Source: Verrucomicrobiota bacterium (GTDB taxonomy: Bacteria; Verrucomicrobiota; Verrucomicrobiia; Limisphaerales; J093). Taken from it: DNA of 33,100 bases. The notes under the pieces are model-generated. The model made no database searches, was not told the DNA's origin, and saw only the letters and a program-made list of their open reading frames with translations. Every line of letters begins with the position of its first letter. The first letter of the stretch is position 1. This document shows positions 1 to 31,323 of this stretch, piece by piece. The position numbers were made by a program, and so were the translations under genes. The stretch spans positions 1 to 33,100 of the forward strand of contig JAAYVR010000209.1 in the NCBI GenBank assembly GCA_012517065.1, written 5' to 3'.

Positions 1-201
1 CACCCGGACCAGTATGTGAAAATGATTGCTCATCACACAGTGGCTCACCAGCTCGATACCGCAGAACCTGCACAGCCGCTTGATCAATCCCTCAAGCTTG
101 TATTTGCACAGTTGATCCAGCAGATGCTCCTTGCCGACGATCCTGGACATGCAGTGATAGACCACAGTTTTACCCTGAAGTTTGATTCTGGGCAGTCTCA
201 T
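1..201 (-). CDS. REP-associated tyrosine transposase (RAYT, IS200-like Y1 family), 5' part, cut by window edge
   Basis: Reading the minus strand from 201 gives 67 codons without a stop, running off the left edge. The start is firm: an AAGGAGG Shine-Dalgarno (213-207) lies 5 nt before the ATG. The peptide begins MRLPRIKLQG and has the family's N-terminal layout: a YHCMSR strand near residues 15-20, a helix, then the HuH metal/nuclease motif MSNHFHILV with the two histidines at residues 60 and 62. Y1 transposases use this HuH pair plus a downstream tyrosine, which lies outside the window, to cut single-stranded DNA. RAYTs are usually single-copy domesticated relatives linked to REP palindromes. 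The dispersed palindromes in this window and a broken copy of the same gene start at 19531 fit that picture. Whether the gene is intact beyond the edge cannot be seen. Confidence 0.85.
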   Translation of the reverse strand, partial: MRLPRIKLQGKTVVYHCMSRIVGKEHLLDQLCKYKLEGLIKRLCRFCGIELVSHCVMSNHFHILVRV

Positions 202-379
202 TATAACCTCCTTGATTTGTATTGTTGTTCTCCTTGCAACAGGGCGACAGGGTCGCAGCCGTGCCTCCCATTGGCCGACTGGTTGGGCGGGTCCGGGTCC
301 GGAACCCGGGGCGCCCAAATATCGTGTCTGTCCCTCTATTTGGGGGTAAAATTGCACAACACGCTCCGGGAGTCAAACG
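202..379 (-). repeat. RAYT 5' leader, repeated at 19532-19703
   Basis: The non-coding sequence before the RAYT start is closely matched at 19532-19703. It includes the Shine-Dalgarno, a CTTGCAACAGGGCGAC stretch, a GC-rich hairpin with a CCGGGTTCCGGACCCGG-type core, the box GTGTCTGTCCC and a GGGAGTCAAACG end. The homology continues into the first 17 codons (151-201), so the duplicated block is 151-379. It is probably the left end and promoter region of the RAYT element. Confidence 0.75.
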
Positions 380-506
380 AGGCTGTCGTGCTATGAAGGG
401 TTCCAGGCTGCCGAGTCGGAAGTGGCTACCGAGATGTCGCTGGAAATGTCACGGACATGAGCACACACAGCGAGTGCAAACGACCTCGCTCAACAGCAAC
501 TTCTTA

Positions 507-19378: not shown

Positions 19379-19409
19379 ATCCTCTGCACCGGTCCGCCGT
19401 GCCTGGCCC

Positions 19410-19468
19410 GGAAATCTCACCGCCTGACCGGCCCAAGACACCCAAATCTTCATCCCGGCGAGATTTCT
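19410..19468. repeat. 59-bp inverted-repeat element, copy B
   Basis: The left arm GGAAATCTCACC (19410-19421) and right arm GGCGAGATTTCT (19457-19468) flank a 35-nt core in the same orientation as copy A (30 of 35 identical). This copy lacks the 70-bp hairpin companion. Its right end lies 11 nt from the broken RAYT fragment. Confidence 0.8.
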
Positions 19469-19479
19469 GGGCTAAACTT

Positions 19480-19531
19480 GCAGTGATAAACGACGGTCTT
19501 ACCCTGAAGGTTTGATTCTGGTTAGTCTCAT
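19480..19531 (-). pseudogene. Remnant of a RAYT transposase gene start
   Basis: The minus strand from 19531 has the same AAGGAGG and ATG arrangement as the gene at 201 and opens MRLTRIK. One extra base (the GG at about 19509) shifts the frame to a stop after ten codons, and homology ends after about 52 bp at the ATCACTGC stretch. It is a decayed 5' end with no downstream gene. Confidence 0.8.
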
Positions 19532-19703
19532 TACAACCTCCTTGATTGCTTTGTTCTTCCTCTTGCAACAGGGCGACAAACTCGCAGCCGCGCCTCCCCG
19601 GCCGACTGCCGGGCGGTCCAGGTCAGAACCCTGGCCGCCCAAATACCGTGTCTGTCCCTCTATTTGGGGGTAAAATTGCACAACACACTCCGGGAGTCAA
19701 ACG
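19532..19703 (-). repeat. RAYT leader, second copy
   Basis: This is collinear with 202-379: CTTGCAACAGGGCGAC, a GC hairpin with altered sequence, GTGTCTGTCCC, TTTGGGGGTAAAATTG and GGGAGTCAAACG. The hairpin loops differ most while the box sequences are unchanged. The following 19704-19926 stretch holds a partial box (GTCTGTCCCCATT, about 19766) and no gene. Confidence 0.75.
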
Positions 19704-19926
19704 GGCCGGGGTGTTAACAAGGCGTCGGGGTAAAGTGGGGGGACTAATCGGGGTAGTCTGTCCCCATTGCGCTCCACCTCCCGGGAACAAAGATAAAGTG
19801 CCAGACTCGAAATTGTGATTTTGGCGCGTTAACGACGGCGGGGCCTCCCTTTTATGGCGTCGGGCTGTTTCCCAAGGTTGCAATTCAAGCTTGATCCATT
19901 GGTTGTGTCAGCTATACGCATCAGGC

Positions 19927-25724: not shown

Positions 25725-25844
25725 GCCGTCCCCAGCCGCATCAACCCGACGACTGAACGCGCGGCCAGTTTCGATTCTGCGAATCCGGCGCCCGAATGTT
25801 GACCGGTCGGCGGACGGCAACCACGTGTCTGTCCCCATATCGCA
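25725..25844. repeat. RAYT-box repeat unit, copy 1
   Basis: About 120 bp running from GCCGTCCCCAGCCGCATCA through GCGCCCGAATGTTGACCGG to GTGTCTGTCCCCATATCGCA. It is related to the units at 30859-30980 and 30991-31107 and sits in the GntR/exoprotein gap. It shares GTGTCTGTCCC and GCGCCC(G/A)AA with the RAYT leader. The rest of the gap 25560-26117 has only palindromes. Confidence 0.7.
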
Positions 25845-26049
25845 TGCCGAGAATCGCCGCGTTCCTGCACTGATGCTACTTGGGATTATTTGTCGATTTC
25901 TCTTGCATTGAGCTGGAAGAACTCGACAATCAAACGGATGGTCATGCTTGCGGAAAACTGGCGACCATGCCCGCCTAGTGGAGGTTGCACCTCTTGCAAC
26001 ACATTCTCTTGGACTGCGCATGGTTGCCGCGCCAGCATGGTGAAGAACA

Positions 26050-26072
26050 GCTTGCCTTTTTCAAAGGCAAGC
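26050..26072. promoter_or_regulatory. 23-bp perfect palindrome before the Ig/PA14 gene
   Basis: GCTTGCCTTT (26050-26059), TTC, then AAAGGCAAGC (26063-26072), 45 nt before the ATG at 26118. It may be a dimeric repressor operator (GntR is divergent) or a leader hairpin. A smaller palindrome, GTTGCA-5-TGCAAC, lies at 25984-26000. It does not match the GT-TA-AC type consensus I know for HutC regulators. Confidence 0.45.
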
Positions 26073-26117
26073 ATGCAAACAGCAGAAAGGAACCAACCGA
26101 AACCACTCACCAGCATT

Positions 26118-29100
26118 ATGAAAACAAGAGTATTAGTTGGTATGGCGACCGCGTTGTTCCTGACGACGACTGCGCTGCAAGCGCAAACGTTTACAGGAAT
26201 CGACCTCGGCACGCCCGCATTGTCCGGCTCTGTAACATCCAACCCCGATGGCACAAAAACCATTGTGGGCGGCGGAGCCGACATTTGGGGCACGGCAGAC
26301 GCCGGTTATTATTACTATGCAACGATCTCAGACCCCGTCTGGGATGCTGTCGTCCACGTCCGAGACCTTCAAGGACCCGACACGTGGACCAAGTGCGAGT
26401 TGATGGTCAGAGTGCCCGATGGCGCCACTCCGGACGCCGCTGATCCGTTCATCGCTGCAATGACAACGCGCACCGGAGGGCAAAACCAGGTCGCCCCTCA
26501 ATGGCGTACCGCACGTGGCGGGAATGCCGACTGGAATGCGTTTGGCCGCACTATTCGTCCGACGTACCCAGGTACATGGCTTCGCATCCAGCGTCAATGG
26601 AGCATCTTCACAATGTGGTACGGCAATGACGGTGTGAACTGGACCAAGTACGTGGACATCGACACTGCCAAGACGGACGTTGTCGGCTCAGATAATGGTA
26701 CAACGTTCGGTGAGGCTTGGCCGGATACGGTCTTCGTCGGAGTGGCTGTTACAGCTCACAATGACGGCGACGCGACCGGCGGTGTCGCTTTGATATCGGA
26801 CTTAAAGATCACCAAAGGCCCGAGCACACCGAATCTGGTCATCTTGCAGGATGTCCAGGATGCCACGGCGGTCGTTGGCACAGCCGCGCTGTTCTCTTTC
26901 GCGGTTACCAACAGCGCCATCGAAAACGGTTTCGTCAGCGATTATCAGTGGTACAAGAACGGTTCGCCGATACCCGGGGCCGTGGGTTCTCGCCTAAACA
27001 TCATTGTTGGCGCGAACGATGACGGCGCGAAAGTGTCCTGCAAAGCTTCTCTGGCAGGCGCAAGCGTCCAAAGCCGTGAGGCCACCCTGACCGCCAAGCC
27101 CGGAGCATCTTACGCCGGTTACTTGAAGTGGGAATGGTTCAGCGGCCAAACCCGTCCTAATGTGGCAGGTGGCAATTGCGGGCCGGCTAATAGGATCATG
27201 GACATTGCCGCGTTCGAAACGATCACCGGCTACGCAGATAATTACGCTAGCCGAGTAAGCGGCTTGTTCATTCCGCCCGAGACCGGCAAGTACGTGTTCT
27301 TTATTGCGGCGGATGACGATGCCGACCTGTTCCTCAGCACTGACGAGAATCCGTCCAACAAGCGGCTCATTGCACAGGAAACCGGTTGGAGCCCAGCCCG
27401 AACGTGGGTAACCAGCCCGGCCTCGGATGTGCTTCAAAAGCGATCGGATCAGTTCACTCCAGACCAAGGAATGACCTACCCATACATGGATGGCATAGAC
27501 CTTGTAAAAGGTCAGAGTTACTACATCGAGGCTGTCCATCATGAAGGCGGTGGCGGTGACAACCTGGCCGTTACATTCAAGCTGATTAGTGATGCCGATC
27601 CGGTTGATGGTGATGCGCCAAAGATGACCAACGGCGTCATTCGCATGCTAACATGGACGCCAACCAAACTCGATGTCGCCACCAATCCGTTGGACGCCGA
27701 CATGTTCGAGGACCAATCTGTCACGTTCACAGCCGAGTTCTCGACAGACGCCGAGACCCTGCCCAAGCTGCAATGGCAGCGCCAGGCACCCGGTTCGAGT
27801 GATTGGGTGGACATCGCTGGCGCAACCGGAAACTCTTATCTGGTCACCACGCGCTTGGCCGACAACGGCACCAAGTTCCGTTGTGTGGCAACCATACCGT
27901 ATGCCGGCTTGACCGCCACAACAACGGCAGCCACCCTGACTGTGAAGGCCGCACCGTTTATCACTGGCCTGGTCAAACGCGAACTGTGGGGGCCAGACAA
28001 CAGCAGTGTCACCCGCGCACAGGTTGAAGCCGGAACGGCAGGGACGCCAAACGCCACAGATTATCTCAGCTCGTTTGCGACCACCGACTTCGCCGAGAAT
28101 TACGTGCAGCGGTTGAGCTGCTATTTCGTGCCGCCTACAACAGGCGATTATGTGTTCTTCGTTTGCTCGGACGACGACAGTGACCTCTTCCTGAGCACAG
28201 ACGAAGACCCTGCCAACAAGCGGCTAATCGCCCAAGAATCCGGATGGAGCGGTGCCCGGGCATGGAACAGCATCGGCGGGGGCTCGCAGGTGGCACAGAA
28301 GAGATCTGATCAGTTCAGCCCCGATGGTGGGATGACGTACCCGTACGCTTCGGGTATTCGCTTGGAAGCCGGCAAGCGCTACTACCTTGAAGCTGTTCAT
28401 CATGAAGGCACTGGCGGCGACAACCTCGCTGCGACTTACAAACTCTTTAGCGAAGCTGACCCCGTCGATGGCGACTACACGAAGTTGACCGGCAACGTCA
28501 TCGGCGTGAAGGCCCCAGCCCCAACTCGCTTGGACATCACCGTTCAGCCTCAAGATGTTGTGGCCCACGGCTGGGACCAGGCAATATTCACCGTGGATGC
28601 TTCTACCGATGCGCTTTACCCGCCCACCTACCAGTGGCGGCGAAACGGGACGCCAATCCCGGGCGCAACAGGCAAGACGTATTCATTGGTTACCTGCCTG
28701 AGCGACAACGGCGCTGAGTTCGATTGCGTTGTCAGCCTTGCCGGGTACGCAACGCCGGCTATTAGCAGGAAGGCCAAACTGACCGTCCTTGGCGACGCCG
28801 TGTTTGTGCCGGGCACGCTCAAAGCCGAGCGGTTCAGCAACCAAAACCGCGAAAATGTTCTGGCAGGCCGTGTCGGCGCACCAGACCTGCTCGAGTACTA
28901 TTCATCGTTTGAAGCGCCCGTGAACGCGGCCGACAATTATGTGCTCCGAGTGAGCGGGTTCTTTATCCCGGCTGTCACCGGAAATTACGTGTTCTTCACC
29001 TGCTCTGATGATGACAGTGACCTGTACATCAGCACCGACGATCAGCCTTGCAACAAGCGGCTGGTCGCCCAGGAGCAGGGTTGGAGTAACAACCGCGAAT

Positions 29101-29555
29101 GGAATAGCGCCAATGGCGGATCAGTGGATATGAAGCGGTCGGATCGCTGGTCGCCAGACGGCGGAACAACAGTTCCGTGGGCTGACGGCATCCGGCTCGA
29201 AGCCGGCAAGCGGTATTACATCGAGGGTTTGATGCACGAAGGCGGTGGTGGCGACAACTTCAGCGCCACGTTCAAACTCATCGATGATGCGGATCCCGAT
29301 AACGGGACACCGACCGCTTTTGTCGCTGCCGTGATCGGTCACATGGAAGCACCGGCAGCTCAGGAGATCAAGTTCACCAAGATCACCGTGAACGCCAACG
29401 GCACGATCACTGTAGAGTGGACCGGCGGTGGCACCCTTGAAGCCACGCCGAGCTTGGACCCGGGCAAGGTCAATTGGCAGCCTGTTCCGGGCGCAACAAG
29501 CCCATTCACATTCGCGCCGACTGAGAAGATGCTGTTCGGCAGAATCAAGAAGTAG
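26118..29555 (+). CDS. Large exported protein with three Ig-like + PA14-like repeats
   Basis: From MKTRVLVGMATALFL (26118) the protein has 1145 residues with a signal peptide cleaved near LQAQ. The in-frame region upstream (from 25890) lacks family character, so this start is preferred although no good Shine-Dalgarno is seen. Residues about 25-232 resemble a LamG/DUF1349-type beta-sandwich (WGTADAGYYYYA, TWLRIQRQW, DGVNWT). Three tandem pairs follow, each an Ig-like domain (YQWYKNG, LQWQRQ, YQWRRNG) and a PA14-like domain with a DNYxxRxSGxFxPPxTGxYVFF...DDDxDL(F/Y) pattern, near 373, 656 and 936. The last 70 residues (ITVEWTGGGTLEATPSL) are a common verrucomicrobial tail module. PA14 domains bind carbohydrate or act as adhesion/enzyme spacers. 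No catalytic domain, membrane anchor or sorting tail is seen. The role is probably glycan binding at the cell surface. Confidence 0.9.
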   Translation: MKTRVLVGMATALFLTTTALQAQTFTGIDLGTPALSGSVTSNPDGTKTIVGGGADIWGTADAGYYYYATISDPVWDAVVHVRDLQGPDTWTKCELMVRVPDGATPDAADPFIAAMTTRTGGQNQVAPQWRTARGGNADWNAFGRTIRPTYPGTWLRIQRQWSIFTMWYGNDGVNWTKYVDIDTAKTDVVGSDNGTTFGEAWPDTVFVGVAVTAHNDGDATGGVALISDLKITKGPSTPNLVILQDVQDATAVVGTAALFSFAVTNSAIENGFVSDYQWYKNGSPIPGAVGSRLNIIVGANDDGAKVSCKASLAGASVQSREATLTAKPGASYAGYLKWEWFSGQTRPNVAGGNCGPANRIMDIAAFETITGYADNYASRVSGLFIPPETGKYVFFIAADDDADLFLSTDENPSNKRLIAQETGWSPARTWVTSPASDVLQKRSDQFTPDQGMTYPYMDGIDLVKGQSYYIEAVHHEGGGGDNLAVTFKLISDADPVDGDAPKMTNGVIRMLTWTPTKLDVATNPLDADMFEDQSVTFTAEFSTDAETLPKLQWQRQAPGSSDWVDIAGATGNSYLVTTRLADNGTKFRCVATIPYAGLTATTTAATLTVKAAPFITGLVKRELWGPDNSSVTRAQVEAGTAGTPNATDYLSSFATTDFAENYVQRLSCYFVPPTTGDYVFFVCSDDDSDLFLSTDEDPANKRLIAQESGWSGARAWNSIGGGSQVAQKRSDQFSPDGGMTYPYASGIRLEAGKRYYLEAVHHEGTGGDNLAATYKLFSEADPVDGDYTKLTGNVIGVKAPAPTRLDITVQPQDVVAHGWDQAIFTVDASTDALYPPTYQWRRNGTPIPGATGKTYSLVTCLSDNGAEFDCVVSLAGYATPAISRKAKLTVLGDAVFVPGTLKAERFSNQNRENVLAGRVGAPDLLEYYSSFEAPVNAADNYVLRVSGFFIPAVTGNYVFFTCSDDDSDLYISTDDQPCNKRLVAQEQGWSNNREWNSANGGSVDMKRSDRWSPDGGTTVPWADGIRLEAGKRYYIEGLMHEGGGGDNFSATFKLIDDADPDNGTPTAFVAAVIGHMEAPAAQEIKFTKITVNANGTITVEWTGGGTLEATPSLDPGKVNWQPVPGATSPFTFAPTEKMLFGRIKK

Positions 29556-30858: not shown

Positions 30859-30980
30859 GCGGCCATCCCCGGTCGCATCAGGTCAGAGACCGATCTTGCG
30901 AACGGTTCCGACCCCGCAAATCAGGCGCCCGAATGTTGACCGCTTGGGTGCGCAAACAACGTGTCTGTCCCCATATCGCG
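30859..30980. repeat. RAYT-box repeat unit, copy 2
   Basis: It runs from GCGGCCATCCCCGGTCGCAT through GCGCCCGAATGTTGACCG to GTGTCTGTCCCCATATCGCG. It is followed 10 nt later by copy 3, so the pair is a tandem array with a period of about 132 bp in the gap 30751-31323, where no gene is seen. Confidence 0.75.
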
Positions 30981-30990
30981 TTTCGGGAGC

Positions 30991-31107
30991 GCGGCCGTCC
31001 TCGGCCGCATCAACCCGATGACTGATCTTACCAGCGGTTACTATCGCACAAATAGGGCGCCCGAACGTTGACCGGTTGCGGAACTGCATGTCTGTCCCCA
31101 TGTCGCA
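30991..31107. repeat. RAYT-box repeat unit, copy 3
   Basis: It runs from GCGGCCGTCCTCGGCCGCAT through GCGCCCGAACGTTGACCGG to TGTCTGTCCCCATGTCGCA. Its first 20 bases form a GCGGCCG/CGGCCGC-like palindrome. It shares CATCAACCCGA-GACTGA with copy 1. Confidence 0.75.
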
Positions 31108-31146
31108 CCAAGAATCCCCGCGTGACTGCCGTCCGATCAAGGCTTA

Positions 31147-31216
31147 GCCCGCATATTTCATACCCTGAGCAGTCTGCGAAACGGGTGCCTTCAAGCAACC
31201 AAGGAATATGCGGGCC
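31147..31216. repeat. 70-bp hairpin repeat, copy 2
   Basis: GCCCGCATATTTCATACCCT begins it and ATGCGGGCC closes it. CTGAGCAGTCTGCGAAACGG is identical to copy 1 at 507-576. Element copy C begins 2 nt later. Confidence 0.75.
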
Positions 31217-31218
31217 CC

Positions 31219-31277
31219 GGAAATCTCACCGGAGTGAAGCTTTGGGTGTCTTGGGCTGGTCCAGCGGTGAGATTTCC
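31219..31277. repeat. 59-bp inverted-repeat element, copy C (core inverted)
   Basis: The arms GGAAATCTCACC (31219-31230) and GGTGAGATTTCC (31266-31277) are perfect complements around a 35-nt core. The core matches copies A and B only as its reverse complement, although the sequence on both sides (ATGCGGGCC before, GGGTTAG after) is in the same orientation as at copy A. Confidence 0.85.
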
Positions 31278-31323
31278 GGGTTAGCAGGAACGTTCTTGGG
31301 GCAAGATTCCCAGGTCAGCAACT

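Follow-up and report, generated by a model that had tools for sequence, protein, structure and literature searches.

Y1 transposases work on single-stranded DNA by a cut-and-rejoin route. RAYT-class transposases are mostly low-copy, and it is their partner repeats that move, the gene itself staying put (PMC6006769). According to the excerpts of that paper used here, class 2 genes are low-copy except for subclass 2.3, with its low similarity between copies, and no REP-like sequences are given for subclasses 2.1 and 2.3 (PMC6006769). TIRYTs, as far as the excerpts of their description go, carry inverted terminal repeats sharing GGGGWSAS, and the TIR families are moderately abundant and occur in dimers or clusters (PMC3733652). 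The TIRYT/TIRtrons of PMC3733652 probably correspond to subclass 2.1 of PMC6006769. Our searches found no literature on IS200 transposase copy number in Verrucomicrobiota and, among the matches listed for the box string described below, none that by title concerned bacterial repeats.

A 5.26-Mb draft genome in 298 contigs includes, as contig C59, the 33,100-nt stretch analysed here (the window). We consider it probable that a mobile element of IS-like kind, whose Y1 (HUH) transposase is related to RAYTs and TIRYTs, has multiplied in this Verrucomicrobiota genome and that window 1-383 is its left end. Support comes from comparisons of sequence: many copies with different flanks, a same-strand box at both ends, one deletion derivative at four places, and remnants that end at the box. 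Going by the Y1 family, the transposase would cut at the box-bearing ends or close to them, in single-stranded DNA, then join the ends and reinsert the strand elsewhere. The element is an IS-like, direct-box variant near TIRYT/RAYT, and a proven member of neither. It differs from these systems in that its ends are direct, its copy number is IS-like, and its copies are nearly identical; the GGGGWSAS sequence of the dispersed boxes is shared.

The transposase and its relatives

The edge gene is a minus-strand ORF of 67 codons (1-201) that starts with ATG at 201-199 and runs off the contig start. It matches PF01797 (Y1_Tnp; 28.7 bits, cut-off 23), its HUH motif is H60-F61-H62 (HFH), and a Shine-Dalgarno sequence, AAGGAGG, lies directly 5' of the ATG on the same strand (207-213). 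A preliminary description of this DNA, made from the letters alone, was right about a Y1 transposase with an intact HuH motif at the edge, and about a good ribosome-binding site for it. By its HUH motif and by the Y1 fold of a homologue model, the protein belongs to the Y1/HUH transposase superfamily. The stretch that would hold the catalytic tyrosine lies beyond the window, and a protein search of this assembly did not find it. H60, H62, Y173, and N177 are all invariant in 23 homologues, as is the Y-x3-N motif, in which the next residue is P in many and A in most copies of a related genome, G006; the signature of class 2 is Y---NP. Complete relatives have 319-391 aa, except L055 (253 aa). A Pfam search of one homologue returned Y1_Tnp alone, and no HTH or DnaA-type domain.

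Four homologues scored 59.9, 70, 57.1, and 61 bits on the NCBIfam REP_Tyr_transpos model, below its cut-off of 80. A search of the PDB by sequence gave three weak matches (E 0.05). In the predicted model of a G006 homologue (mean pLDDT 71.4, pTM 0.77), the best solved match was E. coli TnpAREP (4er8; Z 14.3, 3.2 A, 159 residues), followed by IS608 TnpA (Z 10.5). The model predicts a helical insertion after the HUH strand (helices 75-86, 91-107, and 112-120), and a first strand (13-22) leading to helix 30-47 with no insertion between strand 1 and helix A.

With RAYT/TnpAREP, as excerpted from PMC2817692 and PMC6006769, the element shares the catalytic core, the fold, and many dispersed partner repeats; it differs from RAYT/TnpAREP with REPs or REPINs in that its gene is present in many copies, its boxes are direct and not palindromic, inverted REPs with a GT[AG]G foot were not seen at its ends, and the NCBIfam score of homologues is below the cut-off. 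Its multi-copy state, Y1 chemistry, and related fold recall IS200/IS605, but the NCBIfam IS200 scores of the homologues were 16-21 bits (18.6, 20.8, and 16.5, with one of four tested proteins having no listed match) against a cut-off of 55, the motif is Y-x3-N, and hairpins are only predicted here. The excerpted account of subclass 2.3 (PMC6006769) fits in the long protein, several copies per genome, the lack of clear REPs, and, in the model, a helical insert that separates the third strand from helix C, the core helix that follows; it differs in that our model is without an insertion between the first strand and the first helix, and in that 2.3 copies are not highly conserved within a genome, whereas those here are ~95% identical. 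Class 3 Y1 transposases also resemble both IS and REPtrons and had ~600 flank-type structures in one genome, but their Y-x4-Q motif and CnGA-footed structures set them apart by description, in the part of the paper excerpted (PMC6006769).

Element ends and their boxes

The left end and leader occupy 202-383 on the minus strand. All 40 scored copies (the best 40 of 287, rows not chosen by the box) extend to query 379-393, mostly to 383. The left-end box, CAAATAGAGGGACAGACACGATATT (318-342, minus), contains GTGTCTGTCCC at 324-334 on the plus strand. The box core is invariant in the left-end alignment partly because rows were chosen by the box. The left side varies upstream of GTTTGAC, and the tips of the element as placed here are approximate, not fixed. 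In 31 of 51 left-end rows (a script-gathered set that includes one copy from the sister species, L040, and is distinct from the 51 27-mer places given below), another, weaker box was found 106-108 or 116-117 nt upstream of the left-end box, against 2/44 control stretches; by the strict pattern it was not found in 20/51 rows, including the window 1-383 copy. A possible hairpin 3' of the left-end box (284-317, minus) is predicted with z about -2.0 for a 124-nt stretch. This left-end signal is weak (z from -2.0 to -2.4), the right-end unit gives none (z 0.27), and among 35 copies, which are too alike, there was no covariation (0/35 predicted pairs changed on both sides). An Rfam search of the window returned nothing at the gathering threshold.

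Twenty right ends were read, and extend ~410 nt after the stop codon. Two boxes (typically AAATAGAGTGACAGACACGATATT), ~126 nt apart, were present in 18/20; L084 and L095 are without the second, and in L097 a third follows. Beyond the second box the alignment of right ends has no conserved columns; a box is the outermost conserved part of this end and adjoins unique DNA. The check for the box at the downstream ends, proposed in the preliminary description, turned out positive: most copies have the one-base variant GTGTCTGTCAC, and a few have GTGTCTGTCCC. Both ends have in common AAATAGAG[G/T]GACAGACAC, and because the left-end box is on the same strand as the right-end boxes, the ends are direct repeats. 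In one locus (L251; C274, 33700-35100), a left-tip box is followed by a close inverted box copy.

Inverted REPs with a GT[AG]G foot flanking the gene were not found by reading the ends, and the REP/REPIN reading of the ends was ruled out, the boxes being direct. Of the earlier picture of a RAYT beside its REPs, the relationship to RAYTs stands; a usually single-copy RAYT beside REPs does not, given 51 left-end copies, direct boxes at the ends, and homologues whose NCBIfam RAYT score falls short. The palindromic repeats at 503-643 are a repeat family separate from the element. The dispersed box GGGGACAG fits GGGGWSAS exactly, the transposase is a RAYT-like Y1 transposase outside REPs, and the TIR families of TIRYTs are also dispersed in dimers or clusters, all of which recall the TIRYT/TIRtrons as excerpted (PMC3733652). 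The same excerpts, however, describe the TIRs as inverted, while the left and right boxes here are direct, on the same strand, and the element's own boxes (AGGGACAG and AGTGACAG) depart from GGGGWSAS.

Deletion derivatives and dispersed boxes

Four copies (C77, C78, C83, and C184) have the left end joined, at about position 204 (nine codons in), to the same C-terminal point of the reference, and are without the transposase core. That a single deletion junction occurs at four places suggests that copying followed the deletion. A further seven copies (C61, C90, C127, C166, C241, and two on C274) consist of the left tip and box only (56-65 nt), and these remnants may be scars of excision or recombination.

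The GTGTCTGTCCC sequence occurs 573 times (298+275) in this genome, often in same-strand arrays, against 0+1 for the reversed control. In a sample of 417,202 bases (20 stretches and the window), GGGACAGACAC, GTGACAGACAC, GAGACAGACAC, and GCGACAGACAC occurred 48, 7, 1, and 0 times, respectively (reversed controls 0, 0, 0, and 1). A weight matrix trained on 55 exact boxes found 105 boxes at score 12 and none in a Markov control, training and test sample being the same. Most dispersed boxes are GATATGGGGACAGACAC and lie within repeats whose bodies differ from the element ends. In the window, this type occurs at 25817-25842 (minus) in a ~130-nt repeat without a transposase gene; another dispersed box is at 30953-30978 (minus) in the same type of repeat, with a weaker box on the same strand 127 nt away (31080-31105). 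The RE-type 25-mer (up to 2 mismatches) was found at 178 places, some of them left-end boxes (control 0). By a crude choice of ORFs, 21/55 exact boxes lie inside ORFs of at least 150 aa, which cover 85.1% of bases. This genome has two other Y1-type genes, L031 (C124) and L034 (C169), one IS200-like with YIDKQ and the other RAYT-like with YIELNP, and no box was found near either in the stretches read.

Gene-less boxes may have been moved or left behind by the same transposase activity, as the Y1 family would suggest. We regard as somewhat unlikely the alternative that homologous recombination or slippage between direct boxes left the gene-less boxes and left tips as scars, that the arrays are copies of a composite repeat, and that the transposase moves the whole element only. 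Recombination between direct end boxes would give exactly the left-tip-plus-box remnants seen at the seven places. Among the boxes found with the weight matrix, neighbours within 400 nt are on the same strand in 50 cases and on opposite strands in 3, but these are not 53 independent events because a single composite repeat accounts, through its copies, for many of the pairs; the fixed spacings of 37 nt (16 times) and 115-117 nt (19 times) speak for such copies as well. Against this alternative, hundreds of boxes lie in repeats with bodies unlike the element, and boxes far outnumber genes both here and in G006.

G006 has at least 41 transposase homologues, of 381-391 aa in the aligned full-length copies. 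Its upstream box, WWWTARWWSTTGACA, differs from that of this genome and occurs 110 times (reversed control 0); it was not found in six other genomes searched, and an earlier, badly specified pattern had given 25 matches in G006 against 4 in the control. Among 100 places listed, all 15 pairs of neighbouring boxes within 200 nt are same-strand. The GTGTCTGTCCC sequence itself occurs at least once in 82/146 genomes, this genome included, with 50 copies in the sister species, 36 in G130, 21 in G066, 17 in G017, 8 in G010, and 0-4 in the others tabulated. G026, of the same order, has 39 matches to the transposase start, yet 0 copies of GTGTCTGTCCC. A motif upstream of the gene was found in relatives at 72/106 loci in forward and 5 in reverse orientation, a count to be read with the motif having been chosen after seeing examples and the loci, many from G006, not being independent. 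Among 29 full-length relatives, one had a clear direct end pair (L217, score 21; shuffled controls reach 14), with a repeat starting 3 nt past the stop codon. No general end pairing was found in these 29, L215 (direct, 13.5) and L142 (inverted, 12.0) being within the shuffled range.

The box could also be a promoter, terminator, or other regulatory signal that flanks the gene by chance and spreads for other reasons. The G006 box ends in TTGACA, often ~40 nt upstream of the start codon; this part may be a -35 element, which could explain part of the pattern. We think this explanation improbable, because in this genome the right end, too, has the box as its outermost conserved part, beside unique DNA.

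It is possible, and we propose it tentatively, that a RAYT/TIRYT-type Y1 lineage of Verrucomicrobiota moves non-palindromic direct-box modules, as whole elements, internally deleted copies, and gene-less box-to-box units, and that the box of each host lineage changes with its transposase. If so, direct boxes would take the place of palindromes in a REP-like system. A genome in which a RAYT-class relative behaves as an insertion sequence and has both deletion derivatives and hundreds of matching boxes would lend itself to tests of how these repeats spread and of the joint change of box and transposase.

Copy number, contig ends, and the relic

A 27-mer of the left end (up to 3 mismatches) was found at 51 places in the genome (reversed control 0). 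This count does not agree with the usual single-copy state of RAYTs on which the preliminary description had relied. Repeat families D5, D9, and D11 of the window, together with 51 places against 0 in the control, put the recurrence far beyond chance. The leader, which had been considered as perhaps a widespread non-RAYT repeat, is indeed widespread, but as the left end of this RAYT-related element. All 40 scored matches to window 1-480 (the best 40 of 287 candidates) lie within 154 bases of a contig end. With a G006 homologue as protein query, 47 places were found in this genome, of which 26 extend to the C-terminus of the query; apart from a single 30-residue fragment (C156), the assembly is without the middle of the gene. 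The contig that forms the window stops within a high-copy element; the assembly breaks at this repeat, and some contigs of this genome end because of it.

An assembly artefact, in which collapsed or mis-joined repeats inflate a few copies into many, is very improbable: the draft is in 298 contigs and nearly all gene-bearing copies stop at contig ends, but the upstream flanks differ between contigs, internal copies exist, and the listed contamination is 0.03. The differing flanks also rule out local duplication, so that of mobility and local duplication, both offered earlier for the second copy, mobility explains it better. We give next to no credence to an ordinary domesticated RAYT with a REP family, that is, a stable single-copy gene with one decayed local duplication, because the nearness of the protein to RAYT/TnpAREP by NCBIfam and fold and the nearby palindromic repeats are outweighed by 51 left-end copies with different flanks, by 40/40 scored matches (best 40 of 287) near contig ends, and by direct boxes where inspection found no inverted GTAG-footed REPs.

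The mean pairwise identity of 34 left ends, relic included, was 94.9% (lowest 87.0%), a value that leans high because the rows compared are best matches. Identity to the copies of the sister species was 84.7% (five rows, but four copies, since L040 and L220 are one locus). Most copies look recent because the left ends are ~95% alike as against ~85% to the sister. The copies on C184, C203, and C248 share only 85-87% identity with the reference, as does the relic, and by this measure the relic and these few copies are older than most. In the longest matches, the identity between sister DNA and the window is 85-93%.

The recurrence of the gene start and leader, reported at 19480-19703, was found at 19476-19702 (minus), where 220 of 268 aligned columns are identical to the edge left end. 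As had been supposed, this broken copy is the same gene start, a decayed left end of the same element. It retains the ATG (19531-19529, minus), its left-end box lies at 19642-19666 (minus), and a further box-like sequence, GGGGACAGACT, is 107 nt upstream of that box (19755-19765, minus). The single inserted base described before holds for the coding part, where a single extra C follows about codon 7 and codon 11 is TAA, but not for the leader, which has several further small indels. Homology is lost after ~17 codons, where a different palindromic repeat starts. In our tree, the relic falls among the sister-species copies (support 0.72 and 0.90) and, because of this grouping, it is probably older than the burst of copies. 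The 19476-19702 copy is a truncated, frameshifted, and probably older left end of the same element.

In the sister species (G001), no empty site was found at the two sites compared, those of the relic and of the 1-383 copy; the flanks meet other DNA there with no clean join, and synteny is broken. Synteny with G001 breaks at 19386-19792, with flanks matching its contigs C55 and C607, each with other DNA at the break. The relic is truncated by one copy of the palindromic repeat with the GGAAATCTCACCG core, which occurs at 579-643, 19407-19474, and 31216-31280, with longer copies at 503-591 and 31143-31231. A 417-kb sample of this genome has 27 exact copies of this core, against 0 for the reversed control, and the repeat recurs in the sister as well. 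At 27234-29108, inside a 1221-codon ORF (25890-29555), there are 134-180-nt repeats of 68-71% identity, ~840-860 nt apart.
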